A stretch of 64,000 nt of DNA, taken from assembly GCA_022484805.1 (NCBI GenBank), contig JAKVKP010000002.1, positions 62,001 to 126,000 of the forward strand, written 5' to 3'. Origin of the DNA: Streptococcaceae bacterium. Its GTDB lineage: Bacteria > Bacillota > Bacilli > Lactobacillales > Streptococcaceae. Position numbers and translations under genes: made by a program. Positions 31,570-63,384 of this stretch are shown here, piece by piece. Every line of letters starts with the position of its first letter. The first letter of the stretch is position 1. The notes beneath the pieces were generated by a model. The model worked only from the letters and a program-made list of their open reading frames with translations, searched no databases and had not been told where the DNA came from.

Positions 31570-31570
31570 C

Positions 31571-33233: not shown

Positions 33234-33244
33234 CGTCTGCCTCC

Positions 33245-33421
33245 TTAGCTGAATTTAAGTCTAGTCACTGTATCTTCTTTATAATTAATCTTGATGAACC
33301 CTTCATTTTCCATATTTAAAATTGTTGTTTCAGTTATTCCAAAGAATCTTTTGAATTTTTGATATGGCACAGTATCGCCGTCTTCGAATGTTCTATCAAA
33401 AAGTAATTGATGATATTTCAT
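33245..33421 (-). CDS. Small phage protein with helix-turn-helix-like segment
   Basis: 58 residues from ATG 33421-33419, preceded by GGAGGT; a second ATG 15 bases upstream also has a weaker site. FKRFFGITETTILNMENEGFIKINY resembles a MerR/excisionase-type winged helix. Could be a small DNA-binding regulator; not assigned further. Confidence 0.5.
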   Translation of the reverse strand: MKYHQLLFDRTFEDGDTVPYQKFKRFFGITETTILNMENEGFIKINYKEDTVTRLKFS

Positions 33422-33569
33422 GATTTCTACCTCCATATTCACTCCAACCCTCACCGCTAGCGCCTAGCCACTAGTAAGCTAGGACACCAACAGAGTTAAT
33501 AAATTATTATTTTCTGCGAGCTTAAATTAAGTAATGTATCTCGAACGAAAGTTTTTTTCACTCGCAAGT

Positions 33570-33606
33570 CGGATGTTTCCGCATCCGTGGTAGTTTCCGC
33601 TACCGA
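33570..33606 (-). promoter_or_regulatory. Two tandem hairpins with identical CGGAAA loops
   Basis: On the minus strand GTAG-CGGAAA-CTAC and GGATG-CGGAAA-CATCC stand next to each other with two bases between, in the gap between the helicase gene (33631) and the small gene at 33421. Repeated loop sequence with different stems implies selection on RNA structure, for example a protein- or RNA-binding element in the early transcript. Confidence 0.5.
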
Positions 33607-33630
33607 TGAGGGCTGGAGAAGTGTTAATTA

Positions 33631-35214: not shown

Positions 35215-35225
35215 TGAATACCTCC

Positions 35226-35783
35226 CTAAAACGCACCGTTACCAAATCCATTTTGTTGCGGTTGAGTGTTACCTGTTGGAAATGGAGTCGTATTTTGTTG
35301 TGGTTGTTGAAAATTCTGCGTTGGTTGTTGTTGAAAAACACCACTATTTGCTGCAGGTTTCAAAAATTCTTTTACACGGTTATTCTGACGTTGTTGACCT
35401 TGAACTGTATAAGTATTTGTTTCAACTTTAACTCGCCCTTGACTACCAATGACTACTGACCAATTAGGTGAAAAAGCTTGTCCGATAACTGGTGCTTGAC
35501 CGATTGAAGTAAAGAATTGTGTTAATTTCCATTGCCATTTTTTCATCATGTATAATCTTTCAAAAACTGTAGTTTTGCCTTCAGTTCCTACAACTTCAAG
35601 TGATACTTCTGCGTATGGTGCGCCATTGGGAATCTTGTCACTATTACCGTCATAAATCTTCCGCTCAAGATTAGTCACAGTGAAAGGATATTCACCATCA
35701 GGCAATAAAGTAAATTGACTTTCTTCTGCGATAAAACTACCGCCCCAGTCTAAAAATTCGTTATCATTATTTTGAATAGTCAT
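35226..35783 (-). CDS. DUF669 protein, probable ssDNA-binding accessory
   Basis: 185 residues. FLDWGGSFIAEESQFTLLPDGEYPFTVTNLERKIYDG and YMMKKWQWKLTQFFTSIGQ are diagnostic of DUF669. The C-terminal quarter is Gln/Asn/Pro-rich (NFQQPQQNTT...), like the disordered tails of SSB proteins. In related phages it is encoded with AAA_24 recombinases and helicase, and is thought to act on ssDNA. Function is partly inferred. Confidence 0.85.
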   Translation of the reverse strand: MTIQNNDNEFLDWGGSFIAEESQFTLLPDGEYPFTVTNLERKIYDGNSDKIPNGAPYAEVSLEVVGTEGKTTVFERLYMMKKWQWKLTQFFTSIGQAPVIGQAFSPNWSVVIGSQGRVKVETNTYTVQGQQRQNNRVKEFLKPAANSGVFQQQPTQNFQQPQQNTTPFPTGNTQPQQNGFGNGAF

Positions 35784-35795
35784 TAATATTTCCTC

Positions 35796-36818
35796 CTAAA
35801 AATTCCTAATTTTTTCATTTAAAAACGTCATTGTACTTTGCCAATTAGAAGATAGATAATCCCATAATTCACTTGGAATATTTTCTAATGGTGTATCTAA
35901 TGGCATGAAACCACCTTTATAGATAATTTGCATAATTTCATCAACACTTACTTGATTGGCTTTCATTAAATCAGCTACTGAATTTGGTATTATCTCAGGA
36001 ACTGATTTAATTGGTTCGGCTGCAAAATTTGGTTGACTGCTGGATGTTTCAACTGGACTTTCGTTAACTGATTGTTTATTAATTGTTTTAATTGGTGGTT
36101 GAATAGCTGTCACATCACTTAAAGCTTGAGCAATTTGAGAAAAGTCAAAAGGTAATTCATCAGGTAAACCAATACGGTTCTTGGCATCCCATGCTGGTCT
36201 ATGAGTTGTGTACATCATACGTTGACCGCCAACACCTTTTTTGCTTTTTGTTTTTTCGTCAGTTAAGATTGTCGTCTTATAATTAGCAAATAAGACCATG
36301 TCAGCCCACTCTTTAACTAGTGGACCTGTCTTCTTTTCGAGTTTCAGCTCATAGCGATCATAAGCACCCATTTCGTCAGGCTCTTCTTTCTTGCGTAGCC
36401 ATGCATGAGCTGTGATAACAACATTCACACCCACTTCTACCACATCACTTAATTTATTTAGTAAGCCACCGAATTCTTGTTCAAGTGCAATATACTTAGC
36501 ACCATAGTCGTTGCTACTATCAGTCCATTTATTCAATGCTGCTAGGTGACTTTTGCAGATTTTTTCTGCCCAATCGATTGTGTCAATAACTAATGTCTGA
36601 CATGGCTTATTGGTTTTAACGTACTCAACTTGTTGCAAAAGCATTGACCAGCTGGTTGGCTTATCAAAACGTTTGACTTCCATGTGAAGCGTACTATCTT
36701 CAGTATCAATAAATAATGGGTCAGGAAATTGACTTGCAAATGTTGATTTACCAATTCCCTCTACGCCATAAATGACAACCTTTTGTGCTTTTGGTACTTT
36801 GCCACTAGTTATATTCAT
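35796..36818 (-). CDS. AAA_24/Sak4-like recombination ATPase
   Basis: 340 residues from ATG 36818, with AAAGGAG upstream; it overlaps the stop of the preceding gene by one base (TAATG). Walker A VVIYGVEGIGKSTFASQFP, then LFIDTEDST, Walker B-like TLVIDTIDWAEKI and VVITAHAWLRKKEEPDE. A RecA-like core with a C-terminal extension of about 110 residues. Such phage proteins promote single-strand annealing with an SSB partner, here plausibly DUF669. Confidence 0.85.
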   Translation of the reverse strand: MNITSGKVPKAQKVVIYGVEGIGKSTFASQFPDPLFIDTEDSTLHMEVKRFDKPTSWSMLLQQVEYVKTNKPCQTLVIDTIDWAEKICKSHLAALNKWTDSSNDYGAKYIALEQEFGGLLNKLSDVVEVGVNVVITAHAWLRKKEEPDEMGAYDRYELKLEKKTGPLVKEWADMVLFANYKTTILTDEKTKSKKGVGGQRMMYTTHRPAWDAKNRIGLPDELPFDFSQIAQALSDVTAIQPPIKTINKQSVNESPVETSSSQPNFAAEPIKSVPEIIPNSVADLMKANQVSVDEIMQIIYKGGFMPLDTPLENIPSELWDYLSSNWQSTMTFLNEKIRNF

Positions 36819-38104
36819 TAAAATGCTCCTTTCCCTTGCCATTGATTAGTTGGTTGTTCAACTGTTTTCGGTACAGAATACCCATCCTCGATTAGAATGC
36901 TACATTCATCACCAGTTGAAACTCGTGTGGCGATTGCTTGTAAATCTTCTTGTTCCAACCATTGACCAAATTCGTTTAATGTTTCTAAATCCATTTGTTC
37001 CAATTTGTCGATTAAGACAAAACCACATTCTGGTTTTAACTTACGAACAATGGCAGTAGACACTTTCAATTGTTCTGAACCACTCATGTTATCCCAAGAT
37101 TGACCATTGTATGTTAATTCCCCATCTTTTACGGATAAACCAGGCAGCGGTAAATCGGCATTATCCAGTAGCGAATTTTTCTGATCAAGAATACTTTTAA
37201 TTTTTTCAGTTAAGCTATCGTACTGTTTCTGATACTCAGCAGCATCTTCTTCTGCCTTTTCTTTATCTAAGTTGGCACGTACTTTCATGTTGACTTCATC
37301 AATTTGTTGAATGTTATGCTCTAATTCTTCGGTTGATTCATCTTGAAGTTGTAGAGCAGATTTTTGAGAAATTTCTAAATCTTTAGAAGTTTGTTCATGT
37401 CTTTGTTCCATTTCAAGTAATTGCTGCCTTAGCGCTTCAATCTGATTACGTTCAAGCTCAAATTGTTGGCTAATTTGGGCTACTTGTTGCCGTTTTCGAG
37501 CGTTTTCACCGTTCTTGGCTAATATTATCTGTTGTTGTTCAATTAGCTCAGAAGCGCTCACAGGCGTTTTAGGAACGTCAGGATAAAAGACTTGTTCCTT
37601 AGCAAACTTTCCTTTTTGATCAGCAATTTGACCAATTGAATGACGTTGATTGTAGTATTCGTTATACTCTTGTTCAAGTTTAAATAATTGTTCACCTACC
37701 CCAATGATTTGAAGTAAAGTTTTTCCTTTGTCTTTGGCATTTTGATTCATGAATTTTGGCAAGTCGATTGCTAGTTCTTCAATAAAGCTATCTAGTAACT
37801 GCTGACCACCCTTTTGTCCATTAGGGTCAATTACCTTAAGCGTTGAATTTTTGCCCGTACGTTCAACGACAAGTCCATTGGATAGGGTGATTTTTAAGTT
37901 AGGTGGCGTTACACTACCTTCTCGTTCTGGTTGGCTAGGCTTATATTTATTGCCACCAAGTACCCATGCAATAGCATCTAAAACCGATGTCTTACCTTGA
38001 CCATTCTTACCACCTAGAATTGTTAAACCATTCTGAGTTGGCTCAACTTTTACTGCTTTAATCCGTTTAACATTTTCAGCTTCAAAAGTATTAATTTTAA
38101 TCAT
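36818..38104 (-). CDS. SMC/RecF-like phage ATPase
   Basis: 428 residues. N-terminal half head: INTFEAENVKRIKAVKVEPTQNGLTILGGKNGQGKTSVLDAIAWVLGG (Walker A). A long heptad coiled coil spans about 170-300. The C-terminal half head has DNMSGSEQLKVSTAIVRKL (signature) and GFVLIDKLEQMD (Walker B). A short SbcC/RecN-like protein acting in phage recombination or end processing; no separate SbcD-like nuclease is encoded nearby. Confidence 0.85.
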   Translation of the reverse strand: MIKINTFEAENVKRIKAVKVEPTQNGLTILGGKNGQGKTSVLDAIAWVLGGNKYKPSQPEREGSVTPPNLKITLSNGLVVERTGKNSTLKVIDPNGQKGGQQLLDSFIEELAIDLPKFMNQNAKDKGKTLLQIIGVGEQLFKLEQEYNEYYNQRHSIGQIADQKGKFAKEQVFYPDVPKTPVSASELIEQQQIILAKNGENARKRQQVAQISQQFELERNQIEALRQQLLEMEQRHEQTSKDLEISQKSALQLQDESTEELEHNIQQIDEVNMKVRANLDKEKAEEDAAEYQKQYDSLTEKIKSILDQKNSLLDNADLPLPGLSVKDGELTYNGQSWDNMSGSEQLKVSTAIVRKLKPECGFVLIDKLEQMDLETLNEFGQWLEQEDLQAIATRVSTGDECSILIEDGYSVPKTVEQPTNQWQGKGAF

Positions 38105-38317
38105 CTAAATACTCCCTTCTTTATCCGTTTTCAGCATCATTAACTCTGAACGATTGCATCTGTCCTGCCGTTCTAATTGGTAATAAGCATCATTGGAATA
38201 TTTAAGTTGTTGTTTTAATCTACGAATTATTTTTTTGTTTCGATTATTTTCACTTGTTCTGATTAATAGAAAACTAGCAATGTTAATTCCCACGAAACAT
38301 AAAATCTGTGTTATCAT
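38105..38317 (-). CDS. Small single-TM phage protein
   Basis: 70 residues from ATG 38317 with TTGGAGAAAAA upstream. N-terminal membrane segment MITQILCFVGINIASFLLI, followed by a basic helical cytosolic part. Directly precedes the SMC-like gene. Unknown function. Confidence 0.5.
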   Translation of the reverse strand: MITQILCFVGINIASFLLIRTSENNRNKKIIRRLKQQLKYSNDAYYQLERQDRCNRSELMMLKTDKEGSI

Positions 38318-38353
38318 TTTTTCTCCAATCTGTGATATAATCACCTTGTAAAA

Positions 38354-38989
38354 TTATTTGTTAGTCGACTCTGCCAAGTCGGCTTTTTTGTTGTGTTCAA
38401 GTAAAGCAAATTTTAAAATGTGCTCGCCAACCTGTGGATTTACACAGTTTCTTAATACCTGTCGTTTATTAGATATTTTAAAATCGCTTAAGTCGTATCC
38501 GAGAAATTCTTGCAATTCTGGTATTTGAGTAGCCCTTAACTTAGGTCGGCTAAATTCAATTTTTTCAACATCGAAATTAGACCAAAAATTATGTCTGTCT
38601 AATTGAAAACTCGGCTCAATCAGTGGTTTATAATATGGTTTAACGTTTTCGACTACAAATAAACCTTTAAAATTATTTTGAAGAAAAATTATCTCTTGAT
38701 ATAACTTCATATCAGGATAAACAGGTTTAACACCTCTATACCTAACACCTATGTTTTGTCTGAAACTACTATGTGTTTGACATGGTGGACTCGCCCAAAT
38801 TAAATCAAACTTTTCAAAATTTTCTAGTAAATATTGGTGAGCATCTCCAACTATTAAGATGTCATCTGGAAATATTTTTTTATAAACCGTAGCGATTTCT
38901 TCGTTCATTTCAACTGTAGTAATATGATGAGTTTCACCCCAAAGTTTTCTATTACCACCAATCCCGCCATATAAATTAAGTATTTTCAT
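38354..38989 (-). CDS. Orphan C5-type cytosine DNA methyltransferase-like protein
   Basis: 211 residues, short for the family. Motif I is LNLYGGIGGNRKLW, motif IV SPPCQTHSSFRQN with the catalytic PCQ cysteine, motif VI FVVENVKPYY, and VLRNCVNPQVGEHIL is like motifs IX-X. The target-recognition region is very small. No restriction enzyme is nearby. It may methylate phage or host DNA to evade restriction or regulate; the short size also allows a different base modification. Confidence 0.8.
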   Translation of the reverse strand: MKILNLYGGIGGNRKLWGETHHITTVEMNEEIATVYKKIFPDDILIVGDAHQYLLENFEKFDLIWASPPCQTHSSFRQNIGVRYRGVKPVYPDMKLYQEIIFLQNNFKGLFVVENVKPYYKPLIEPSFQLDRHNFWSNFDVEKIEFSRPKLRATQIPELQEFLGYDLSDFKISNKRQVLRNCVNPQVGEHILKFALLEHNKKADLAESTNK

Positions 38990-39039
38990 AAGTCACCTTC
39001 ACTCCTCCCTACGCTATTAATTGCCTGAGTAACTCCTGG

Positions 39040-39354
39040 TCACTTTATATATTCAGGCATCTCATTTTTTATGAACTCTGCTGCTTTTTCTGCCCAAACT
39101 ATTGTTTTACTGCCACCACCTTTTGAAAAACGAACCCACCCATGAATTGGGTCTTTATCAATATTGAGTCTTTTCTCTAATGTTGGATTACTAAATACAC
39201 GAGTATTCCAAACTGCCCACGAATAGCCTGATTGCTTTTCAAATTCTTTTTTTGTCCAAGTAACACTCGCTTTCTCAACTTCCTTGTTCTCCTGAATTAG
39301 AAATTTAATAGCATCAAGTTGAGCGGGCGTGAATAAATTTTCTAACCCCTCCAT
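39040..39354 (-). CDS. Early phage protein, possible DNA-binding regulator
   Basis: 104 residues from ATG 39354 (GGTGGTG upstream). MEGLENLFTPAQLDAIKFLIQENKEVEKASVTWTKKEFEKQSGYSWAVWNTRVFSNPTLEKRLN looks like a winged-helix-like fold. It follows the Cro-like gene with overlap, so it belongs to the first lytic transcript. No firm family. Confidence 0.55.
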   Translation of the reverse strand: MEGLENLFTPAQLDAIKFLIQENKEVEKASVTWTKKEFEKQSGYSWAVWNTRVFSNPTLEKRLNIDKDPIHGWVRFSKGGGSKTIVWAEKAAEFIKNEMPEYIK

Positions 39355-39367
39355 AAGCACCACCATT

Positions 39368-39556
39368 CTATAACCCAAACATTTTTAATAAATTTGCTAA
39401 AATTTCATGAGACTTTGGTTTTTGATTACGGCCAGTAATAGCGTCATAGACTTCTTGTTTGGATTCACTTAACATGTCAGCTAAATTTTGATATGAGTAA
39501 CCTTTCGCTTCTTTATAAGCAAGAATTTTTTCTCTTGCTGTTAATGTTTCAACCAT
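39368..39556 (-). CDS. Cro-like helix-turn-helix protein
   Basis: 62 residues: ILAYKEAKGYSYQNLADMLSESKQEVYDAITGRNQKPKSHEILANLLKMF is an XRE-type HTH. It is the first lytic-direction gene, divergent from the repressor, with AAAGGAG before the ATG. Expected to compete for the operators in 39557-39855. Confidence 0.85.
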   Translation of the reverse strand: MVETLTAREKILAYKEAKGYSYQNLADMLSESKQEVYDAITGRNQKPKSHEILANLLKMFGL

Positions 39557-39855
39557 ATTCTTCTCCTTTCAAAAAAAGTTGTAAGCTAATAAATTAGCTA
39601 TTTTTATAAAAATAATTGACAAAAATTATCTAAAAGTATAAAATAAGTGCATAGTTAAATAAGATTAAAACCTTTAAATAAGCGTTTCTAAGTTTGGCGA
39701 CCCCGAAATTGTTTATATTGTTAGGTTATATTTATTGCACTTATTAACTAACAAATTAGCTTACGAGATTATAATAATACTTTTGGATAATATTGTCAAC
39801 ATATTTTATCTAAAAATATTATTATATTTTTAAAGCACTAAGGAGCAAATGATTT
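39557..39855. promoter_or_regulatory. Lysis-lysogeny switch region with paired operators
   Basis: A 16-bp palindrome AGCTAAT-AA-ATTAGCT (39584-39599) just before cro and a matching imperfect copy AACTAAC-AA-ATTAGCT (39746-39761) nearer the repressor are probable operators. Plus-strand promoter candidates are TTGACA-17-TAAAAT (39616-39644) and TTGTCA (39793-39798) with TATTAT 18 bases later, the latter close to the repressor ribosome site. TTATCTAAAA is repeated at both promoters. Precise start sites are untested. Confidence 0.65.
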
Positions 39856-40170
39856 ATGACACTGTTTGAAATAGTAAAAGAACTTTCAGATAAGCGAGGT
39901 AAAAATTTAAAAACAGTTGCTTTGGAAATTGGATTAAGCGAAAATGCTTTGTACAAATGGAAAACACAATCACCAAAAGCTGATGTATTAAATAAAGTTG
40001 CTGATTACTTTAATGTATCAACAGATTATCTTTTAGGCAGAGAAAAACAAATTACAATTGAAGATATCGAACATTTTCCATTAATTGCTAATAGTGGTAA
40101 ACCAATAAGTGAAAAAACTCGACGCATACTAGTGTCAATCTTAAAAGAAATGGAAGAAAATGATGAATGA
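39856..40170 (+). CDS. CI-like repressor (short, HTH only)
   Basis: 104 residues. XRE HTH (about 5-60): LKTVALEIGLSENALYKWKTQSPKADVLNKVADYFNVSTDYLLG, then a 40-residue tail. It lacks the LexA-like self-cleaving domain, so induction should go through the ImmA-like protease encoded next, with a 4-base ATGA overlap. AAGGAG precedes the ATG. Confidence 0.9.
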   Translation: MTLFEIVKELSDKRGKNLKTVALEIGLSENALYKWKTQSPKADVLNKVADYFNVSTDYLLGREKQITIEDIEHFPLIANSGKPISEKTRRILVSILKEMEENDE

Positions 40171-40553
40171 GAGATTGGTTATACAAGAAAGCAAAAACAT
40201 ATGATTTAAAAATTCTTGAATTATCTCAAGACGAGATGGAAGAAATTCAAGCAATCTACAATCCAACATTAAAAATTATTTTCATTAATTTAGATAAAGC
40301 TACTACTTTTTCAATTGCTCATGAAATAGCACATCATGTTCTAGGCCATGAAATTGACAGAGATAGCCACTTACATTCATCAAGGTCACGAGAAGAAACT
40401 CAAGCGGACGAACTAGCTATTAAATGGATTATTGAAAATGAATTAGATCAAGATAATCAATGTAATTTTGCTAACTTTATGGAATACTACAATATTCCTG
40501 AACGTAGGGAATACTTTGTAAAAGAAGAATTATCAGAGTATTATTTAGGGTGA
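40167..40553 (+). CDS. ImmA/IrrE-family metalloprotease
   Basis: 128 residues. Zinc protease motif FSIAHEIAHHVLGHE (HExxH) with the downstream ETQADELAIKWI glutamate helix. In ICEBs1-like systems such proteins cleave the HTH repressor encoded upstream to cause derepression. Translationally coupled to the repressor by overlapping start and stop. Confidence 0.9.
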   Translation: MRDWLYKKAKTYDLKILELSQDEMEEIQAIYNPTLKIIFINLDKATTFSIAHEIAHHVLGHEIDRDSHLHSSRSREETQADELAIKWIIENELDQDNQCNFANFMEYYNIPERREYFVKEELSEYYLG

Positions 40554-40612
40554 TAAATCATCAAGTTTTTACCGCTTGATTATTTATAATAAATTAAAAA
40601 TTAGGAGTGAAA

Positions 40613-40897
40613 ATGGTTAATAAAACTTGTCCAAAATGTGGTGGACACAGAGTTCAAATGTCAAACGAAAGAAGTAAACATGGGTGTCTCTTCTTCTTAT
40701 TATTTAGCCTTTATTACATCGGGTGGATATTTGTAAAATGGGGAATTGCAGCCTTTATTTTTATTTGTTATGACTGGTGGATGGCAATTATAAAAGCTAT
40801 TCAAAAGAAGGGCTATATTTGGCAAAGTAAAAAATGGATTTCAGGAGTAAAACGCACTTATTATTGCCACGATTGTGGTTATAACTTTAAAGCCTAA
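40613..40897 (+). CDS. Zinc-ribbon membrane protein
   Basis: 94 residues from ATG 40613 (TAGGAG upstream). CPKCGG at the N-terminus and CHDCGY at the C-terminus would form one split zinc ribbon, with hydrophobic segments between (about 26-62). Encoded in the lysogeny module between ImmA and integrase, so probably expressed in the lysogen; superinfection exclusion is a possibility only. Confidence 0.65.
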   Translation: MVNKTCPKCGGHRVQMSNERSKHGCLFFLLFSLYYIGWIFVKWGIAAFIFICYDWWMAIIKAIQKKGYIWQSKKWISGVKRTYYCHDCGYNFKA

Positions 40898-40902
40898 GTA
40901 AA

Positions 40903-40991
40903 AAAACTACACCTCAACCGACCAAAGCGAAAGTGTAGTCTAATCGAAAAAATTAACCTAAAATAGGCTTATTTTTTATACCCTATTTTAG
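40903..40991 (-). terminator. Two hairpins between the zinc-ribbon gene and integrase
   Basis: ACTACAC (40906-40912) with GTGTAGT (40933-40939), followed on the minus strand by seven T, and CTAAAATAGG (40958-40967) with CCTATTTTAG (40982-40991), followed on the minus strand by GTTAATTTTTT. Both T-tracts face the minus direction, shielding the immunity genes from antisense transcription. Confidence 0.5.
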
Positions 40992-41016
40992 CACGAATTA
41001 GGGAGTTGGTACAACT

Positions 41017-42069
41017 ATGGCAAGAAAAAGAGATAAAGTATGGCAAGCCGAAGTCAGTTACAAAACTGTTGATGGGAAATTTAAAAAATGGCGCAAGGGT
41101 GGTTTTAGAACTAAAAAAGATGCTGAACTTGCCGAAAGCGAATTCAGATTAAATAGCATGGCTTTTCTTCAAGCTGATTATTCATTAAGTGATTGGTTTG
41201 AGAAATGGGCAAATCTTTATAAAAAAGATAGTGTAACAGAAGTTACATGGAAAAAATTTGAAACAGTGGTTAAAAACATTGAAAAATACATGCCCGGTGA
41301 AACTTTAAAAACAATAACTCCTGCAAAATATCAGGAACTGCTCAATAATTTTGCAGAGTGCCATTCAAAATCCTCTGTTAAACATTTAAATATGCAAGTT
41401 AGATCAAGTGTCCAATCAGCAATAACTAATCGGATCATACAGTTTGACTTCACAAGAAATGCTGTTATCAATGGCAGCGAAAAAAAGGATGTTGTTTTTC
41501 TTGACTATTCAGATTTCAAAAAGCTTCGAAATTATACAATCAAAAGCGATAATGAAATTGATTTAATAATCTATACTACTTTAATGACAGGTATGAGAAT
41601 TGCTGAAACATTAGGGATTACAGCAAAAGATATACATAATGATTTTATAAATGTAAATAAAACTTATGATTACAAAATTACTGGCGGATTCGCACCTACT
41701 AAAAATAAATCATCTATTAGAAAAATATACATTGATTCAGAAACTAGCAATATATTGAATAACCTCAAAAAAGAATCAAAAAAAAATGATAATAAACCCA
41801 TCTTTGATATTTTTTCTATAAATACAATCAACAAAAGACTAAAATATTTATCAGAAGAACTATCGTTAAAAAAACACAACTTGCATAACCATTCATTAAG
41901 ACATACCCATGCAAGTGTGCTATTATATAAAGGTGTATCTGTTCAAAGTATTAGTCAAAGATTGGGACATAGTACAGTAACTACGACTCAGGAAATATAT
42001 ACTCACTTGATAAAAGAAATGAAAATTCAAGAGGATAAAAAAATATCTAACGCTTTGACTGCCAAATAA
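41017..42069 (+). CDS. int: Phage integrase, tyrosine recombinase
   Basis: 350 residues. N-terminal AP2-like arm-binding domain (KVWQAEVSYKTVDGKFKKWRKGGFRTKKDAE), SAM-like core-binding domain (about 55-145), and catalytic domain with LMTGMRIAETLGI (Arg I), HNHSLRHTHASVLL (His-x-x-Arg) and LGHSTVTTTQEIYTH (His and Tyr nucleophile). It cuts and joins at the 44-bp tRNA-Ser core. The stop lies 23 bases before attR, and the coding end overlaps an arm-type repeat. Confidence 0.96.
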   Translation: MARKRDKVWQAEVSYKTVDGKFKKWRKGGFRTKKDAELAESEFRLNSMAFLQADYSLSDWFEKWANLYKKDSVTEVTWKKFETVVKNIEKYMPGETLKTITPAKYQELLNNFAECHSKSSVKHLNMQVRSSVQSAITNRIIQFDFTRNAVINGSEKKDVVFLDYSDFKKLRNYTIKSDNEIDLIIYTTLMTGMRIAETLGITAKDIHNDFINVNKTYDYKITGGFAPTKNKSSIRKIYIDSETSNILNNLKKESKKNDNKPIFDIFSINTINKRLKYLSEELSLKKHNLHNHSLRHTHASVLLYKGVSVQSISQRLGHSTVTTTQEIYTHLIKEMKIQEDKKISNALTAK

Positions 42070-42089
42070 TTTGGCACAAATTTGGCACA
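42064..42089. repeat. Right arm-type repeat beside attR
   Basis: Exact copy of 2573-2598, containing two TTTGGCACA units; overlaps the integrase stop codon and ends 3 bases before the core. Confidence 0.7.
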
Positions 42090-42092
42090 TTA

Positions 42093-42136
42093 TACTCTCG
42101 GAAAGTTGGCAGAGTGGTAATGCAACGGACTCGAAA
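42093..42136 (+). repeat. attR: 44-bp core, 5' half of the intact tRNA-Ser
   Basis: Identical to 2443-2486. Continues into the host 3' half of the tRNA, so the functional tRNA in the lysogen has prophage-derived upstream DNA. Confidence 0.92.
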
Positions 42137-42187
42137 TCCGTCGAACCGCAGAAATGTGGTGCAGGGGTTCAAATCCCCTACTTTCCT
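42100..42187 (+). tRNA. tRNA-Ser (anticodon CGA)
   Basis: Acceptor GGAAAGT (42100-42106) pairs with ACTTTCC (42180-42186). D-arm GGCAGAGTGGTAATGC, anticodon loop CTCGAAA, long class II variable arm (ACCGCA-GAAA-TGTGGT) and T-arm CAGGGGTTCAAATCCCCTA. The long variable arm and CGA anticodon identify tRNA-Ser reading UCG. CCA is not encoded. It is the attachment site of the prophage and is restored at attR. Confidence 0.95.
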
Positions 42188-42205
42188 TTAAAAATTTTTG
42201 GCATA

Positions 42206-54611: not shown

Positions 54612-55226
54612 CTAAATTTCTATCTGTAAAATTGTTTTTTGTTTATCTGGCGCTGTTCTTCTAGCGTCACTAAGATATATTTCAACGTGATTTTTATTTT
54701 TGCGCTTTAAACCTTTTCCATCAAGATATGACTCCAGTTTTTCGAATGAAGCCTGTTCATCATCGTACGAACCAATATGAAGAATTTGACCAACGTGCAT
54801 TTCAGGATATTTTTTAAGTTGTAAATTATCTATTTCAGCAAAGCCTTTTTTTGCTTTAGCAATTTCAATACTCTCTTTTATTAGCTCGTCACTAACAAAA
54901 TATGGAATCATTATACGAAGTTCGTAGATAAAATCATCTTTTGTCCATGAACCTCGTTTAATCGCTTCTTTACTAATTGTCCACCAACCTGTAAGTGGTG
55001 CAACCACATAATCATCAAAAATATCGTCTGTTGGCTTCTTTTTATAGGCAAATTTAGCAGTATATATTACTGAATAAAGTGCTTGTATATTGTTTTGAAA
55101 AGCTAGTTCATTTGGATTACCTTTGCCTGAAATTGTTAAATAGTTCATTTCTGGTAAAATAAAATCAACTGGCTTTTGTTTTGTCCCAAAAACCTGTTTA
55201 AGCTCCCTTTTATTGTCATACTTCAT
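54612..55226 (-). CDS. GyrI-like small-molecule-binding protein
   Basis: 204 residues from ATG 55226 (AGGGAGAAG upstream). KPVDFILPEMNYLTISGKGNPNELAFQNNIQALYSVIYTAKFAYKK, VVAPLTGWWTIS and QILHIGSYDDEQASFEKLESYL are typical of the stand-alone GyrI-like (YdhM/SAV2435-type) proteins. These bind or hydrolyse cationic or hydrophobic drugs. Clustered with AraC and a second GyrI-like gene. Confidence 0.85.
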   Translation of the reverse strand: MKYDNKRELKQVFGTKQKPVDFILPEMNYLTISGKGNPNELAFQNNIQALYSVIYTAKFAYKKKPTDDIFDDYVVAPLTGWWTISKEAIKRGSWTKDDFIYELRIMIPYFVSDELIKESIEIAKAKKGFAEIDNLQLKKYPEMHVGQILHIGSYDDEQASFEKLESYLDGKGLKRKNKNHVEIYLSDARRTAPDKQKTILQIEI

Positions 55227-55302
55227 TACTACTTCTCCCTTCAGAACCATTGATAGTATTTATTATACTAAATTTATTATATCGTTATTTAATATTCATT
55301 AA

Positions 55303-55554
55303 TTAAATTCCACTCATAGTAATAACCCGAAAAGTGCTAGAATTTATAGTAATACTTATATTAAGATTATAGTTATTAATGTAATAATTCTTTCCGTTTT
55401 TCTTAATGATACTAGTTTTATCTGAAATTATATCCATTACCAATTGTTCTATTTCTTGTCTTGTCATTTTTGTGGATAGTTTTTTATTGATTCTTCCATA
55501 GACTAAATCGGTATAACAAATATTTTCTATAATGTTTTTTCTAATATCGTTCAT
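55303..55554 (-). CDS. DUF3781 protein
   Basis: 83 residues. NICYTDLVYGRINKKLSTKMTRQEIEQLVMDII and KNGKNYYINNYNLNISITINSSTFRVITM match DUF3781 throughout. Common in Firmicutes beside GyrI-like or AraC regulators; function unknown. Separate from the GyrI gene by 76 bases on the same strand. Confidence 0.8.
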   Translation of the reverse strand: MNDIRKNIIENICYTDLVYGRINKKLSTKMTRQEIEQLVMDIISDKTSIIKKNGKNYYINNYNLNISITINSSTFRVITMSGI

Positions 55555-55699
55555 AATTAATACTCTTTTTATCCTTCACATATACCTTAATCCGAAGATT
55601 ACTTCTCTCTTAATTGTAGCATAGACTTATTATCTCATTTTAATACAGTTCTATAATATGCGTGATAAAATATAAATAACAAAAAGGAGCAATTATTAA

Positions 55700-56083
55700 A
55701 TGGCCATAAACGACAATAAAAACTCGCAGTCTAAACAAACTTATTTTAGATTAATCAATAAAACCGAAGATTATATCGAACAACATCTTAAAGAGCCAAT
55801 ATCATTAAGTGATTTAGCTAATAATGCAAACTTATCTGAATTTCATTTTCATAGAATATTTACAAAATATTCTACCGATACAGTAAACGGTTTTGTCACT
55901 AGATTTAAATTAGAAAGAGCAGCAATTTTTTTAAAGGTTAGTTCTAAAATCTCAATAATTGATATCGCACTGGAATACGGATATAATGATCCCAGTTCTT
56001 TTAGTAGATCGTTCAAAAAACATTTCGGAATTAGCCCGTTAAAATATAGAAAAATAGCAAGAAATGTCAAGAACGATAATTAG
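55700..56083 (+). CDS. AraC-family HTH regulator lacking a sensor domain
   Basis: 127 residues: only the double HTH (about 20-120), YIEQHLKEPISLSDLANNANLSEFHFHRIFTKY and IIDIALEYGYNDPSSFSRSFKKHFGISPLKYRK. Rob/BltR-like relatives carry a C-terminal GyrI-like effector domain; here that domain is the next gene, 55 bases downstream. AAAAGGAG precedes the ATG. Divergent from DUF3781. Confidence 0.92.
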   Translation: MAINDNKNSQSKQTYFRLINKTEDYIEQHLKEPISLSDLANNANLSEFHFHRIFTKYSTDTVNGFVTRFKLERAAIFLKVSSKISIIDIALEYGYNDPSSFSRSFKKHFGISPLKYRKIARNVKNDN

Positions 56084-56138
56084 ATTTATGGAATAATTAA
56101 TAATGTAAATATCCCATAAATATAATTAGGAGGACAAT

Positions 56139-56630
56139 ATGATTAAACCAATTAATATCACCACAGAAAATATCGACAATCAAAGAATTATCTATATTCG
56201 CTTTAGGGGTAGTTATACTGAGTTTCGAAAACAAAGCAGAAAGATATTTAAAGAATTATTTGAATTTGCGACAGAAAATGATTTAATCGTCCCTGATGTA
56301 ACGAAAGTTTTGACTATTTATGATGACAATCGGTTCATTACTGATGACAAAAATCTTCGTACAAGTGTCGCAATGACTATTGCAAATGATGCTAAAATTA
56401 TAGAAAGTGGTAATATCTGTGAATCTAGCATTTCTGGTAAATTCGGTGTTGGTCATTTCGAACTATCTGCAAAACAATACAGTGAAGCTTGGCAATATAT
56501 GTATCAAGAGTGGCTTTTTAAAGATAAGGCTAAACCACGAGATGCAGTTCCCTTTGAAATGTACATTACTGAACCACCTAAAAACATGAAGGCCAATAGT
56601 TTAACTGATATTTATATTCCTATTAACTAA
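56139..56630 (+). CDS. GyrI-like effector-binding protein
   Basis: 163 residues. IRFRGSYTEFRKQSRKIFKELFEFA, KVLTIYDDNRFITDDKNLRTSVAMTI, ISGKFGVGHFELSAKQYSEAWQYMYQEWL and MYITEPP match the C-terminal effector domain of AraC-GyrI fusion regulators. TTAGGAGGA precedes the ATG, so it is translated independently. Probably works with the AraC HTH protein upstream. Confidence 0.9.
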   Translation: MIKPINITTENIDNQRIIYIRFRGSYTEFRKQSRKIFKELFEFATENDLIVPDVTKVLTIYDDNRFITDDKNLRTSVAMTIANDAKIIESGNICESSISGKFGVGHFELSAKQYSEAWQYMYQEWLFKDKAKPRDAVPFEMYITEPPKNMKANSLTDIYIPIN

Positions 56631-56819: not shown

Positions 56820-59800
56820 TTAAATTTGATTAATCCTTTTATTTGCATTTGCTCGATATGTGCCATTAACCTCATTAAAGCTACTTATAAGTTTTTTCTT
56901 TGAAAGATATGATAATAAATTCCTATTTGTCTCATTCATCTCAAAAGAAGTCCGACCTTTACCATTTATTAAACCTAAATAGCCAGTAAGATTCAGCTGA
57001 TTAAATTTATCTCTTAACTCACTTTTTGAAAATACTTGAATTGCCCTACTAAATAATAAACGTCTTTTATTTAACGGGATATCTACATTTTTCAATATAT
57101 CATTCAGCAAATTTTTATTTATACTAATCTTTTCCTCAAGGATAATATTAATATTCTGAGTTGCTATGTCATAAACGAGACTTTTAGTACTTAGCGAATA
57201 TTGTTCGTAGTCCACACAAAGAGTACCTAAATCATTTTGATGAAATTTTGTCTGTAAGATATAGTTCATAAGATTAGTTCTATAACCCTTGCCAGAAATT
57301 GATATTGATTCCGCAATTAGATTAACAATTTTCTTTTGTATAGAGAACGGTTGGTCCAAATTATAATCTAATACATTGTTTAATTCTTCGACATTATATA
57401 TATCATCACCATCAGCAATTTGAACATAAAGATCAATATTTTTAGAAATAAAGTAAATTACACTATCAGGGTATTGTGAACGAAAATTAAGCAAAGAATT
57501 TTTAGTAAGTTTTATTCTATCTGTATCTATTAAAATATCTACTTTTTCTTTTGGAATTCCCTCCACAGGAAAACCATCATTATACCGTCGATTCATTCCT
57601 ACCAATATCTTTTTATACGCAATGTTTTCTAAAGAAAATTCCTTAAGAGTAGAGACAAAGAAAGAACTTCGCAAGTCATCTTCATACTTTTCTCCAGTAT
57701 TCGAAATTTTAAAAACTAGTTCGGATTTATTTTTATTAGTAAATTCAATAAGATTTTTATTCCATGTAGATTCATTAAAAATAAAGTAATCAATAATATT
57801 AGATTCATTTGGACGGATTATATTATGCTTTAACACATAATCCCATAAATCCTTTTTATGAATGTTACTCAAGAGCAAATCATTCACTGAAACGGTATCA
57901 ATATATCGTTTTCGAATCTCAATAGATAATTTTTCGTTATTTAATAAGTCATATATATAATTTATATCGTCCTCAGTCTTCTCTTTAGACAGACTTAAAT
58001 ACTCTTCAAGATATTTTTCTATATTTGTATCTATATATTCAACGATAGGTTCATTTTCTAACATTTTAATTATAGTATAATTTTTATGCTCAACGTCCTT
58101 TATGCTATTTTTGTTATGAAAGAAATTTAGAACCTCAGAAACATTATTCATATTAATATCATAAAGAGAATTTTTGTAAATATATCTTGAAAGAGAAATA
58201 TTTATTTTAGAAAATACCACTGTTTTAAATTTAATATTGAACTTCCGTAATTTATCAAGAAAATCTTCCGAAGGCTGACTTATTTCATTCAAGAATTCAG
58301 GCTGACTTTTTATAAACTCGATTATTTCTTTTTTCGAAGAATCTATTTTAAATAAATCTTCTTGATTAAAATTTTCAATAAATTCAACTAATACTCTACT
58401 TTTTTCATTATTCGTAAATGTGTTATTTCTAATTAAACTTAAAAATAATTCAGGAGCATGATTTTTCCATTCCACTATGACTTTTTTTACCAAATTACTA
58501 TCTTTACTAATAAACATTTTTACTAAAAAATCTATCTTATCTTCACGAAGAATCATGCCGAATATTTTATCTAATCTATCCGATCTACCAATTAAATTAG
58601 AATCGTTTAAAATATATTCAAATAGATCATAATTCAATGACTCTATCTTTAAAAACGCCTCCGAGCTTAATCTGTCATACACTTCTGAAATATTGCTTAG
58701 TTTAAAATCCCACTCTAATTTTCGCTCATCCGTAATACTTCTCAGAAATTTTTTATCATTCAATTTTAAACTATTTGGATAAAAATAAGTGAGATAGTCT
58801 TCATATCCTTCATCCATATATCCATTCACTAATATGAAAACTAAAAGATCAAAATAGTCACTTTTTTTAATATCATCGAACGATTCAATTTTTTTAGAAA
58901 AGTGTTCTTTTTGAATTTTTTCAATATCTTGTCTGAGAATGAAATTAAATATCTTTTTTGCTGACAAAATCCTTTTTTCATTTTCTAATAAATTAATTTC
59001 GGTAGTTAATTTTTCAAGTTTTTCTTTATCCAATATTATTTTTCTTCGGTCAATAAAATCTTGATTTCTCTCAATATCAGTAAAAATTTCCTCAAAAGAA
59101 ACATTATATTGCCCGCCATAACTATGTTTGCTTACTGTAACACTCCCATTTTTTAGAGCATAAACAAATTCTGATCTGTTTTTAAAATTCTCTACTTTTT
59201 TCCCGTCAACAATGACGTTATAGTAATTATCAGGCATATTGAAAAAAAGTGTATATAATTCTTTTTCTGATTTTAGTTCTTCTTGATTGGCGTTCTCAAT
59301 ACGCCTTCTAAGATCTGCAATTTGATCATCTAATGATTTCTTTTCTCTGTCGATATACTCTTTCTTTTCAGAAAAAACTTGATACACTAAACCTTTGTTC
59401 AGCTGTAAATTAGCAAAATCATTTGGAAATATATTTTTATATACAATTATAGCAAGAAGATTATTATAGTTTAAAAATTCAGACTCTTTCAACCTTCCTT
59501 TGTATATAATAAACTCATTGCAAATATTTTTTAATAGTCTCATATCATCAATATATAAAGATAAGTCCTGCAAAAAACTTTTATCGAACTTGTCAAAAAT
59601 TTTGTCTTCTTCCAGTATTTCTTTTAACTTTTCATACGAATTTGAAGAGTTAATTACCGGTAGCACAGGAATAATAAAATCAAAAAACTTAGTCCTATCT
59701 TTAGAAATAAACATATCATCTTTTAATAAATAGAGAAAACTTAATTTTTTAAAAGACGATGCGCGCTTAATAACCGTTAGTGAGTTTATATATTTTATTT

Positions 59801-60680
59801 TGCTTAAAAAGGAAAAAATGATTTGGAAGAAGGAGTTTTGTCTAGATTTTTTACGATTATTAACTAATGTGTTTATTTCCTTTAATTTTGAAAAGATAAT
59901 ATTACTATCAAATCTATCGATATCCTCAAATACTACTACATCAGCTTTTGAATGGTCAAAAAGATAAATAACATCATCTAAGTACTTATCAAAATATGAA
60001 TCTTTTGACTCACTAAAGACTTCTATGTTACTTTCAATATTTTTAGATTTAATTGAAATTGTCTTTAGAATTTTTCTAGATACTTGAGCATACAAAATAA
60101 GATACATTAACCAGGTAAAGAATGCGAATACTATAATGGACACAAAGAGCCTCGACAACGGCAGCATAGACAAATTCAGTACCCACTTTAAAGGTGTAAA
60201 ATTTTGATTTATTTCTGAAGCAAATTTAACCCATGAGTCAAACATAATCAAGTATGTAATTAACAAGAGCATGATTGAAAAAATTAAGCTCCATAATACT
60301 ATTTTTTTCTTACTAATATCATTTTTTACCTTAAAAATAGTTTGAGGTATATTAGTTGATTTTATTTGATGTAATAATTGGTTCAAAATTTTCCCTTCTA
60401 GAATTTTGTTTCTAGTAAGGTTTTTTGATCCTGCCGTTGAATTGTTCTCATTCTCTGTATCTTGAAAATGAGCTAATGAAATGTGAATAAATTTGCGTTT
60501 TTGTTTGGTTTTCATCTTATAGGTTTCGATTATACTACTCTTGCCCGAACCATAGATACCCGTAATAGCTATATTTTTAATTTCTTTATCATTTAAAGCA
60601 TAATCAATAGCCTCTTGATAAATTGTCAAATTTTTTAAATTATTATCTGGAGTTAGTTTTTTAAAATTATACTCTGTCAT
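56820..60680 (-). CDS. YobI-like membrane P-loop NTPase
   Basis: 1286 residues. N-terminal Walker A AITGIYGSGKSSIIETYK (about 38-55), two membrane segments (about 129-150 and 177-198), Walker B DVVVFEDIDRFDS (about 245), and LYLLKDDMFISKDRTKFFDFIIPVLPVINSSNS, typical of YobI/KAP-like NTPases. Residues about 440-600 contain coiled coil; the remaining half is an alpha-helical repeat-like region with many Lys/Asn/Ile. Membrane-tethered NTPases of this kind are often accessory and suspected in phage defence. Very AT-rich; neighbours a serine recombinase, so probably acquired. No partner gene is obvious. Confidence 0.82.
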   Translation of the reverse strand: MTEYNFKKLTPDNNLKNLTIYQEAIDYALNDKEIKNIAITGIYGSGKSSIIETYKMKTKQKRKFIHISLAHFQDTENENNSTAGSKNLTRNKILEGKILNQLLHQIKSTNIPQTIFKVKNDISKKKIVLWSLIFSIMLLLITYLIMFDSWVKFASEINQNFTPLKWVLNLSMLPLSRLFVSIIVFAFFTWLMYLILYAQVSRKILKTISIKSKNIESNIEVFSESKDSYFDKYLDDVIYLFDHSKADVVVFEDIDRFDSNIIFSKLKEINTLVNNRKKSRQNSFFQIIFSFLSKIKYINSLTVIKRASSFKKLSFLYLLKDDMFISKDRTKFFDFIIPVLPVINSSNSYEKLKEILEEDKIFDKFDKSFLQDLSLYIDDMRLLKNICNEFIIYKGRLKESEFLNYNNLLAIIVYKNIFPNDFANLQLNKGLVYQVFSEKKEYIDREKKSLDDQIADLRRRIENANQEELKSEKELYTLFFNMPDNYYNVIVDGKKVENFKNRSEFVYALKNGSVTVSKHSYGGQYNVSFEEIFTDIERNQDFIDRRKIILDKEKLEKLTTEINLLENEKRILSAKKIFNFILRQDIEKIQKEHFSKKIESFDDIKKSDYFDLLVFILVNGYMDEGYEDYLTYFYPNSLKLNDKKFLRSITDERKLEWDFKLSNISEVYDRLSSEAFLKIESLNYDLFEYILNDSNLIGRSDRLDKIFGMILREDKIDFLVKMFISKDSNLVKKVIVEWKNHAPELFLSLIRNNTFTNNEKSRVLVEFIENFNQEDLFKIDSSKKEIIEFIKSQPEFLNEISQPSEDFLDKLRKFNIKFKTVVFSKINISLSRYIYKNSLYDINMNNVSEVLNFFHNKNSIKDVEHKNYTIIKMLENEPIVEYIDTNIEKYLEEYLSLSKEKTEDDINYIYDLLNNEKLSIEIRKRYIDTVSVNDLLLSNIHKKDLWDYVLKHNIIRPNESNIIDYFIFNESTWNKNLIEFTNKNKSELVFKISNTGEKYEDDLRSSFFVSTLKEFSLENIAYKKILVGMNRRYNDGFPVEGIPKEKVDILIDTDRIKLTKNSLLNFRSQYPDSVIYFISKNIDLYVQIADGDDIYNVEELNNVLDYNLDQPFSIQKKIVNLIAESISISGKGYRTNLMNYILQTKFHQNDLGTLCVDYEQYSLSTKSLVYDIATQNINIILEEKISINKNLLNDILKNVDIPLNKRRLLFSRAIQVFSKSELRDKFNQLNLTGYLGLINGKGRTSFEMNETNRNLLSYLSKKKLISSFNEVNGTYRANANKRINQI

Positions 60681-60859
60681 TCCTGCATCACATCCACATT
60701 TATATTCTTCCTAATTATATCATATTTCCTTCTTCCTTAAGTGCTGTTACCTAATGAATGTGCTATATCAATGGCAAGATTACCTTCTTTTGGTAATTAT
60801 CTCCATTCGTCATACCATATATAAGTGACAAAATTTAATAAATATATGGAGGCATTCAA

Positions 60860-61519
60860 ATGGAACAAAGTAGTATGAATAGTAAGTTTAAGAAATTGGA
60901 GAGATTAGATAGCATTAAGGTTGGCTACGCTCGCGTAAGTAGTTTAGACGATCGTCAGAAACTTGGTCTTGAAGTCCAAACAGAGGCATTGGCGGATTGC
61001 TCAATCATCTTTTCAGAAAAGCAATCTGGCAGTAATGACAATAGAGTAGAATTAGACAAAGCAATAAATCTCGCTAAAGATTTAGCTAGTAGTGGAAAGC
61101 AAGTTTCCTTCTGTGTCTACAAAATGGATAGGTTAAGTCGTAAGACCTCTACCCTGCTAAAACTAGTTGAGGACTTAAAAGAGTATGGGATTGAGTTTGT
61201 TAGTATTAAAGAAAATATAGATACAGCAACACCTACAGGGATTTTGATGTACCAGCTACTTGGTATATTTGCCGAGTTTGAACTTAATAACTTGAGACAG
61301 CGAACTCGTGAAGGTTTAGAACAAGCTAGAAAGAATGGTGTCGTACTTGGTAAACAACCAATACCAATAGATAAGAAACAAGAAATAATAAGACTATACC
61401 AAATGAATAGTTTACCAATTAAGACTATTGCAAAACGACTTAAACTTTCTGAGAGCAGTATCTATAAAGTAGCGAGGCAACACGGTTTATCTCGAAGATA
61501 TCCTCAGAAATTACTTTAA
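60860..61519 (+). CDS. Serine recombinase (resolvase/invertase family)
   Basis: 219 residues. Catalytic region VGYARVSSLDDRQKLGLEVQ (Ser nucleophile), FCVYKMDRLSRKTSTLLKLVEDL, GILMYQLLGIFAEFELNNLRQRTREGL (helix E) and C-terminal HTH (IKTIAKRLKLSESSIYKVARQHG). All conserved residues appear intact. Divergent from the YobI-like gene. Could act on the neighbouring island or be a plasmid-type resolvase. Inverted repeats for a phase switch were not found. Confidence 0.92.
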   Translation: MEQSSMNSKFKKLERLDSIKVGYARVSSLDDRQKLGLEVQTEALADCSIIFSEKQSGSNDNRVELDKAINLAKDLASSGKQVSFCVYKMDRLSRKTSTLLKLVEDLKEYGIEFVSIKENIDTATPTGILMYQLLGIFAEFELNNLRQRTREGLEQARKNGVVLGKQPIPIDKKQEIIRLYQMNSLPIKTIAKRLKLSESSIYKVARQHGLSRRYPQKLL

Positions 61520-61628
61520 ATATTTATGGAGTTATGGTAATATTCCATTAAAGCCACTTCATTTTTTACCGAACGTTATAACAAGTTTACATTTTCGCAC
61601 TTATACAACTAATTAAATATTATACGAT

Positions 61629-61671
61629 AGCTGATTTAACAGGGTATATCCTTGTTAAGTCAGCTTTTTTG
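61629..61671 (+). terminator. Terminator downstream of the recombinase
   Basis: AGCTGATTTAACA, loop, TTGTTAAGTCAGCT (ending 61665), then TTTTTT. Confidence 0.85.
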
Positions 61672-61774
61672 TTGAACTTGTTAAGGCGTTCGTCAAAAAA
61701 AGTTCAGCTAAGGGGGTAAGAGAAAGATGTTATTAGGGGTGGTTCTAAAAACAATAATACAAAAAGGAGATGAA

Positions 61775-61816
61775 ATGACTAAGTGGATACAAGAACAAAG
61801 TTACGAAAAAGAGTAA
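61775..61816 (+). CDS. 13-codon ORF overlapping the LPXTG gene start
   Basis: AAAAGGAG lies 5 bases before ATG 61775; the frame reads MTKWIQEQSYEKE and stops at 61816, past the GTG (61783) used by the LPXTG frame. Either a coupling/leader ORF or the trace of a one-base frameshift at the true start. Confidence 0.4.
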   Translation: MTKWIQEQSYEKE

Positions 61817-63384
61817 AAAATTTAAAACGTAAAAAATTGGTAGTTGGTCTTTCTTTAGCAACATTAGGACTTGGGACTATTTCAACGGTCGTGCCTAACT
61901 TCACGACTACAGTAAACGCCGAAACTCTTGAACAACTAGGGATTGACCCTACTAGATTCAAGGCAGCTATTGCGGCTGGTGAGGAAGCATATGCAAACGA
62001 ATCTCTCTATACTGAAGAGTCATTTGCTGCATTCCATAATATTAATGGTGATGCTCCCCTAAAAACTGATTATTATATCAGCCAACTAAAACTATTAACA
62101 TCTGTAGATACCCTTAACCCAGATTATTTTGATAATTATATCGGAGTAGGGAATGGTCAGGCGTCTTTAGTTGAAACTGCATTAGCGAAATTAGTTTTGA
62201 AACCGGCAACAGATACCCTAAACTTAGATGCACTAAGAGCAGCTATTCAGAGTTCAGAAAATCTAGTCGAAACTGACTATACGACTGAATCATGGGCAGT
62301 ATTTAATCAAGCATTGATCAATGCTACATTTGTAGAGGGTTACGTAACCAATGGTGAAACAGTACCCTATACTTACACACAAGCAGACATAGATGAATTT
62401 AGTAATAACTTAGTTAATGCTATTAATGCTCTAATGGAAATTACCCCTGTTGACCCATCAGAAACATATGGTCAGTTGCAATTAGCGAACGCTACGGCAG
62501 TCATTAATGAATACTATTCTCTTAACCAGCCGTCTTACACGATTGAATCGTGGGTAGCTTTGAGCGCAGTCAGTAATGATGTTGATTTCTTGAATGAAAT
62601 CATTAATAAACCTGCTGATGAATCTATTTCTGAAGGTGAAACAATTGTTAATCTTCAAGCGAAAGTTGACTCTTCTGTTAGCTCTATCAACGCTGCAATT
62701 GCTGCATTAGAGCTAGTTCCGATTGTTCCACCACAAGTAGTAAGTGATGTATTTACTGTTACACCGAAAGATGTAAAAGTGGGAGAAACGGTAAACTTTA
62801 CGTATACGGTTACTCTTGACGATGGTACGGCACAAAATGGGTTTTCGTACTACGGTATTGAAAGCAATTTGTTAGTTAAGGGGGGAGATCAGCCTGTACT
62901 CACTTCACCTACATTAGAAACTATCAACGGCACCACTTGGACTCCAAGCAAAGCAGGAGATTATGTTATCTATCTTAGCTTTAAGCCGGAAGGTAGCGAT
63001 GTTGTAACTATTAAATATGTATCAGTAAAAGTTTCTGAAACTTCAACTGGAGGTAACGATAACGGTAATGGTAATGGTGGAAACACTAAGCCGGTTGACC
63101 CAACTCCAGCTCCAACAGATCCATCTGATGGGGTAAGTGATAAGGATTCTGGTGACAATAACAATGAAGCTACTGCATCAAAAAATGAAAATAAAAAAGA
63201 TACTACAAATGAAACGAATTCAAGTAAAGACACTAATTCTAGTAAACAAAATAAAGAAAATAGCAAAACTGCCGATGAGCTACCAAAAACAGGCGAACAC
63301 TCTTCCCTTGCCTTAGGATTTAGCGGTTTTGGAGTTATCTTACTTGCATTAGTTACTTGGTTTAGAAAACGCAGAAAAGCTTAG
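61783..63384 (+). CDS. LPXTG cell-wall-anchored surface protein with FIVAR-like repeats
   Basis: 533 residues from GTG 61783. Basic N-terminus and signal peptide (KKLVVGLSLATLGLGTISTV, cleavage near VNA-E, about 46). Three FIVAR-like helical segments (about 48-113, 145-214, 230-312; e.g. LRAAIQSSENLVETDYTTESW) and an Ig-like domain (about 320-415) follow. Then comes a low-complexity G/N/K/S linker and LPKTG (500-504) with hydrophobic tail and RKRRK. Sortase A would anchor it to the wall; adhesion or matrix binding is likely. The GTG has no ribosome site of its own at proper distance. Confidence 0.85.
   Translation: MDTRTKLRKRVKNLKRKKLVVGLSLATLGLGTISTVVPNFTTTVNAETLEQLGIDPTRFKAAIAAGEEAYANESLYTEESFAAFHNINGDAPLKTDYYISQLKLLTSVDTLNPDYFDNYIGVGNGQASLVETALAKLVLKPATDTLNLDALRAAIQSSENLVETDYTTESWAVFNQALINATFVEGYVTNGETVPYTYTQADIDEFSNNLVNAINALMEITPVDPSETYGQLQLANATAVINEYYSLNQPSYTIESWVALSAVSNDVDFLNEIINKPADESISEGETIVNLQAKVDSSVSSINAAIAALELVPIVPPQVVSDVFTVTPKDVKVGETVNFTYTVTLDDGTAQNGFSYYGIESNLLVKGGDQPVLTSPTLETINGTTWTPSKAGDYVIYLSFKPEGSDVVTIKYVSVKVSETSTGGNDNGNGNGGNTKPVDPTPAPTDPSDGVSDKDSGDNNNEATASKNENKKDTTNETNSSKDTNSSKQNKENSKTADELPKTGEHSSLALGFSGFGVILLALVTWFRKRRKA

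Follow-up and report, generated by a model that had tools for sequence, protein, structure and literature searches.

A divergent Tmn-type membrane NTPase next to a probable surface-gene invertase in a Streptococcaceae genome

Towards the end of a 64,000-nucleotide stretch of a Streptococcaceae contig (JAKVKP010000002.1, positions 62,001 to 126,000; the whole stretch is called the window here), the gene for a very large nucleoside triphosphatase (NTPase) lies back to back with the gene for a small serine recombinase. This locus raises the question of what the NTPase does and whether the recombinase belongs to it. The initial annotation, made from the letters of the DNA, had treated the two genes as one island and had considered a membrane-linked, single-gene defence role plausible. 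In our reading, to which we give a probability of about 0.68, the NTPase is a one-protein, membrane-anchored anti-phage system of the Tmn type, the recombinase is a separate invertase module, and the NTPase occupies a variable slot for defence cargo. The coordinates of the features are collected in Table 1.

The NTPase gene is an uninterrupted open reading frame (ORF) of 1286 codons, as annotated. It is indeed very AT-rich, with a guanine-cytosine (GC) content of 26% (22% at third codon positions), whereas the greater part of the window has about 33-38%. In a Pfam search residues 21-433 matched the YobI-ATPase family PF20693 along the full 363-position model (E = 2.3e-115); this model spans the ATPase part only and carries no assigned function. 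The PADLOC model for Tmn (PDLC02220) was matched with an E value of 8.3e-67 in two stretches, the best being residues 308-998 of 1286, and was also strongly matched by five of the five close Gram-positive relatives tested. When a plasmid-borne E. coli "anti-phage transmembrane ATPase" (L006) was compared with the NTPase by BLASTP, residues 5-987 aligned with 23% identity (E = 2e-54). An NCBIfam search gave no meaningful match, and KAP_NTPase (PF07693) was matched neither in the Pfam search (E <= 0.1) nor in a whole-genome scan (E <= 0.001). Judged by its sequence, the NTPase is a distant, divergent Gram-positive member of the known Tmn family. What is new is this divergent member; Tmn itself is already known. 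The initial annotation had called NTPases of this kind poorly characterised, but a defence role has already been demonstrated for the family. E. coli Tmn is a single-gene anti-phage system that blocks T1, T2, P1 and Dhillonvirus phages, and a phage-encoded anti-Tmn protein is known; escape mutations map to nmad5, a phage DNA-modification gene, the deletion of which gave no escape (PMC11846954). The window protein and E. coli Tmn are alike in that both have a P-loop domain of the YobI/KAP type, in which a pair of membrane helices separates Walker A from Walker B, and a C-terminal half that is long and helical. Both measure about 1270-1290 residues, and each is encoded by a single, accessory gene of a kind often found on mobile DNA. 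It differs in its low identity, in its last roughly 300 residues, which cannot be aligned, and in its location on a Gram-positive chromosome.

The Walker motifs, the two membrane segments and the long helical C-terminal half that had been noticed initially are borne out by conservation, hydropathy and AlphaFold models. Residues Gly-46, Lys-47, Glu-252, Asp-253 and Arg-256 are invariant in 17 homologues, among them E. coli Tmn. Within Walker A, G41, Y43, G46, K47 and S49 are invariant or at least 90% conserved among relatives, and besides this motif the residues conserved to at least 90% include E252-D253-x-D255-R256, R329-T-K-F-F-D334, D378-D379-M-R381, N385, N388-E389 and K415-N416. By hydropathy the hydrophobic helices begin near residues 127 and 178, and in the AlphaFold model they comprise residues 124-145 and 174-202; hydropathy also reveals two such helices in nearly all relatives. 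The invariant Walker residues, together with the membrane helices present in relatives, argue for an active membrane ATPase.

In the model of the N-terminal part, which has a predicted local distance difference test score (pLDDT) of 85, the membrane helices are looped out of a P-loop core at a point after the second strand and before Walker B. Foldseek gave no significant match for this model, and the closest folds, also not significant, were those of ORC/Cdc6 AAA+ ATPases. The C-terminal model (AlphaFold2, pLDDT 88, predicted template modelling score 0.57) contains a predicted helical hairpin at about residues 440-466 and 555-575, and Foldseek related it to alpha-solenoids as a class only, with a template modelling score of about 0.1. 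Searched by sequence against solved structures, the NTPase matched nothing beyond the P-loop of interferon-inducible GTPases, and that weakly. The ATPase part and a patch near residues 620-645 are highly conserved, and the rest of the C-terminal half shows low conservation, as would be expected of a solenoid with a variable target. The last 56 residues are net basic, with 9 Lys/Arg and 3 Asp/Glu.

Universal conservation in the genus, which the initial annotation had named as an observation that would speak against its proposal, was looked for, and the opposite was found: the NTPase is missing from both other genomes of the genus (0/2). It is present in 21 of the 396 genomes of the order, the window's own genome included, and this sporadic distribution agrees with the earlier view of an accessory gene. 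A single-sequence scan of genome contigs with the NTPase found no relatives; an alignment-based scan found 400. The best 80 of these 400 come mostly from Bacillota; Enterobacter, Gilliamella and a methanogen contribute one each. Among plasmids, 635 PLSDB records match the NTPase, and 480 of them are predicted to be conjugative. Because phage records hold no relative and viral contigs only ten, the NTPase gene is not mainly a phage gene. The initial description "far from known partners" is correct, and across 75 distinct loci there is no conserved partner; integrases are the commonest flanking family (12/75), accompanied by scattered type I restriction genes. The nearest neighbours of NTPase relatives match 175 PADLOC models (E <= 1e-20), methylases foremost, versus 6 models for 124 control genes, a raw ratio that overstates the difference, since many of the models overlap. 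With the PADLOC match to Tmn, the lack of a conserved partner and these defence-rich neighbourhoods, a membrane-linked single-gene defence role has gained in plausibility.

The recombinase ORF is likewise intact and divergent from the NTPase gene, as annotated, and the intergenic region presumably holds both promoters. Its Pfam content is limited to the PF00239 resolvase catalytic domain and helix-turn-helix models, with no zinc-ribbon or recombinase extension. Both flanks of this recombinase family were tabulated at about 34 loci. At most of these, the product of the co-directional gene 0.2-0.4 kb downstream is an LPXTG protein or is otherwise secreted or exposed at the surface. Between the recombinase and the surface gene there are inverted sites about 105-130 bp apart, which enclose a segment of about 110 bp; such pairs are found in 28 loci, and in the window the sites enclose positions 61588-61674. 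The cores of the sites read CGNNCG, with AA, AC, GT or TT at the centre. Serine recombinases need matching central dinucleotides for inversion, and the central dinucleotide is identical in the left and right sites at all 28 loci with a pair. A single locus, L110 of genome G366, carries the segment in the opposite orientation: when reverse-complemented, this segment aligns better with 26 of the 27 others (mean score 51 versus 32), and all segments other than that of L110 score higher in the forward direction on average. A second reversed segment, at L119, was considered and rejected as an artefact of hairpin picking, because that locus has a longer terminator-like hairpin in the usual orientation. 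Because of the paired inverted sites, the matched dinucleotides, the recurring layout and the inversion at L110, the recombinase is most likely a phase-variation invertase of the surface gene.

In the orientation found in the window, a terminator stands between the recombinase and the surface gene, and we infer that the switch is OFF, with the terminator in the way of read-through. The single terminator match in the scan of the switch is within chance, and the call is based on recurrence across loci; a promoter scan within the switch gave nothing above shuffled sequences. In the systems of the invertases Hin, Gin and PinQ, too, a small serine recombinase is accompanied by a pair of inverted sites that share the same asymmetric central dinucleotide. 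The window switch differs from them in its very short terminator-bearing segment before an LPXTG gene, and its type of locus differs in the varied defence systems that are swapped next to the invertase. Inversion by E. coli PinQ alters the cell surface and reduces phage adsorption (PMC12529663).

Further invertase copies, 74-77% identical, are found at L120:8736-9386 (G000:C5) and L057:9036-9704 (G001:C2) without paired sites or a downstream LPXTG gene, and the copy in G000 has an in-frame stop. A tandem invertase-LPXTG-invertase-LPXTG arrangement is present at L108:6519-10350 (G275). No close homologues of the recombinase were found on plasmids.

On the other flank of the recombinase, away from the surface gene, the genes vary from genome to genome. 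Cargo recognised there by PADLOC includes Tmn (G245), OLD (L116), PDC-M49A (L115), HamAB/Hachiman (L111), LmuA (L109), IetAS (L238), GajAB/Gabija (L234) and PDC-S06 (L114), as well as a CBASS cyclase with a 2TM effector model match in the same set (L228). With the window excluded, defence cargo is present at 9 of 32 loci compared with 1-2 of 33 on the downstream side (Fisher p 0.006-0.02, uncorrected for relatedness), a small tally in which related genomes are not independent. Genomes G245 and G366 share a left chromosomal flank that is 87-88% identical, carry different cargo (Tmn versus OLD), and are again 89% identical from within the recombinase onward. This difference amounts to a cargo swap, the breakpoint of which lies inside the recombinase gene. 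A stretch of 35 bp past the OLD gene of G366 looks like a remnant of a recombinase, which fits such a swap and could also be due to chance. In our reading the flank serves as a slot in which defence systems are exchanged, with the window NTPase as its occupant. LXG-domain toxins lie in the same slot in other Lactobacillales (L109:7021-8364 and L117:7216-8712), one of them with Ntox44.

The coupling of an invertase and surface-gene locus with a defence slot looks new, and a search of the open-access literature found no report of such a locus or of its defence cargo. We tentatively propose that in Lactobacillales the invertase, the invertible terminator and the surface gene could form a conserved locus with a dedicated slot for interchangeable defences, and that the two sides might be functionally coupled: a phase-variable surface would alter phage adsorption, and an intracellular back-up would be swapped by recombination within the invertase gene.

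For the NTPase itself we favour a model in which a solenoid is the sensor, the ATPase the switch and the membrane part the effector. The P-loop domain, interrupted by the two-helix membrane hairpin, would be held inactive. A product of phage infection would be sensed by the C-terminal half, a long and variable array of helical repeats, perhaps together with the winged-helix-like element at its end. Binding or hydrolysis of ATP would lead to assembly, possibly as an oligomer, or to a change of shape. The activated NTPase would then act on the membrane, perhaps by damaging it, and phage production would be stopped.

Several points weigh against this reading. The tested Tmn is only about 23% identical, and the last roughly 300 residues have no counterpart in the alignment with it, so that protection against phages is not certain; to our knowledge, all tested Tmn proteins are from Gram-negatives. 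The evidence for a sensor in the C-terminal half consists of the predicted fold type and the lower conservation, and the action on the membrane is something that we infer. As regards the switch, inversion was seen between loci of different genomes and not between sister cells of one strain. The C-terminal end also invites another reading, in which a Tmn relative acts on DNA at the membrane and blocks the entry or replication of phage DNA, with the tip or the solenoid contacting nucleic acid. The predicted terminal HHH-E-H-EE element with its net basic tail would suit this, as would the resemblance of the ATPase core to AAA+/ORC-Cdc6 folds, though that Foldseek match is not significant. However, winged-helix folds mediate protein contacts too, and the tip lies outside the alignment with E. 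coli Tmn. The mapping of E. coli Tmn escape to nmad5 points to DNA, but deletion of this gene gave no escape, which leaves sensing of modified DNA unclear (PMC11846954). We consider action on DNA unlikely. An accessory role other than phage defence, for example in handling secreted LXG/WXG toxins or in another conflict system, is suggested by the breadth of PF20693, a family named after B. subtilis YobI, by the LXG toxin genes in the same cargo slot at L109 and L117, and by the low identity to the tested Tmn. It is at odds with the strong PADLOC match to Tmn and with the nine recognised or candidate phage-defence systems held by the same slot, and neither LXG genes nor secretion genes were seen around the window copy; we regard it as quite improbable.

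The remaining alternative concerns the recombinase, which might mobilise the NTPase as part of one small mobile cassette. The same divergent pair does occur in a second family (G245, the only second case, with 41% identity for the NTPase and 71% for the recombinase). What G245 and G366 have in common is the chromosomal flank on the left and the 3' portion of the recombinase gene, and the cargo between them differs. However, the NTPase relatives in 90 other loci have no close recombinase homologue nearby, the best being 34% identical at one locus, and one system made of both proteins was rejected for this reason. The recombinase, for its part, is found both at loci that carry defence cargo and at loci that lack it, in most cases 0.2-0.4 kb in front of the gene for a surface or secreted protein; its paired sites are on the surface-gene side, and no such sites were seen on the far side of the NTPase. 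We regard a cassette as highly improbable. The recombinase is neither part of Tmn nor a partner or mobiliser of the NTPase, and it pairs with the downstream surface gene through the invertible element. In this respect the initial annotation, which tied both genes into one island, has to be revised.

The NTPase extends Tmn-type defence to Gram-positives, with relatives numbering in the hundreds (one genome scan gave 400), and offers a structural frame for Tmn, composed of a membrane hairpin in the ATPase, a solenoid and a winged-helix-like tip. When small serine recombinases lie next to defence genes, they are commonly written off as markers of mobile elements (PMC12529663). In the window, the sites of the recombinase link it to a surface gene, and the other flank of the invertase is a place at which lactic acid bacteria, enterococci and streptococci can be searched for new defence systems.

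Table 1. Positions in the window of the NTPase gene, the recombinase gene and the putative invertible switch
Feature	Coordinates	Strand	Basis
Tmn/YobI-like transmembrane P-loop NTPase, 1286 residues	56820..60680	-	PF20693, PADLOC Tmn, E. coli Tmn alignment
Walker A, residues 41-48 GIYGSGKS (41-GIYGSGKSS-49)	60537..60560	-	conservation among relatives
Walker B, residues 248-256 VVVFEDIDR	59913..59939	-	E252, D253, R256 invariant
Two predicted transmembrane helices, residues 124-202, between Walker A and Walker B	60075..60311	-	hydropathy and AlphaFold2, pLDDT 85
C-terminal half, residues 440-1286: predicted helical hairpin with small beta insert, alpha-solenoid, terminal winged-helix-like HHH-E-H-EE	56820..59363	-	AlphaFold2
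Intergenic region, 179 bp, between divergent NTPase and recombinase genes	60681..60859	.	sequence
Small serine recombinase, 219 residues, probable DNA invertase, not part of Tmn	60860..61519	+	PF00239, E 1.5e-35; conserved upstream of surface genes
Left inverted site, core CGAACG at 61570-61575	61562..61587	+	paired-site search
Intrinsic terminator hairpin with T run, within invertible segment	61629..61665	+	recurrence across loci
Right inverted site, core CGTTCG at 61687-61692	61675..61700	-	paired-site search
LPXTG-anchored surface protein, 533 residues, presumed switch target	61783..63384	+	homologous LPXTG gene in same place in G245 (E 1e-7)

The term "island" holds in part for the wider setting. 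From position 51727 to about 10.5 kb past the end of the window, the recombinase gene and short fragments are the only parts with a nucleotide match in the congener G001. A clean insertion relative to G001 was rejected, because the flanks of this region are about 420 kb apart there. Two GyrI-like genes and an AraC-type regulator (54612-56630) adjoin the Tmn gene; they have a low GC content and no nucleotide match at the corresponding place in G001. Past the window end, a deaminase gene (L051:2803-4404, G000:C2:126802-128403) that strongly matches the PADLOC defence model "dCTPase" (E = 8.6e-147) lies next to a DUF2806 gene and adds another defence gene to the region, some 4 kb away from the Tmn locus. 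It is followed at L051:6569-12365 by genes for an MT-A70 methylase, a coupling-protein-like ATPase, a Replic_Relax protein and a large serine recombinase of 554 residues, which directly precede chromosomal genes common to G001 and are probably an integrative mobilisable element. Elsewhere in the window, at about 28800-42190, there is a prophage-like region. It comprises genes for replication, a regulator of the repressor type and an integrase (41017-42069) that ends beside a serine transfer RNA gene (tRNA-Ser, 42100-42187), a likely attachment site.

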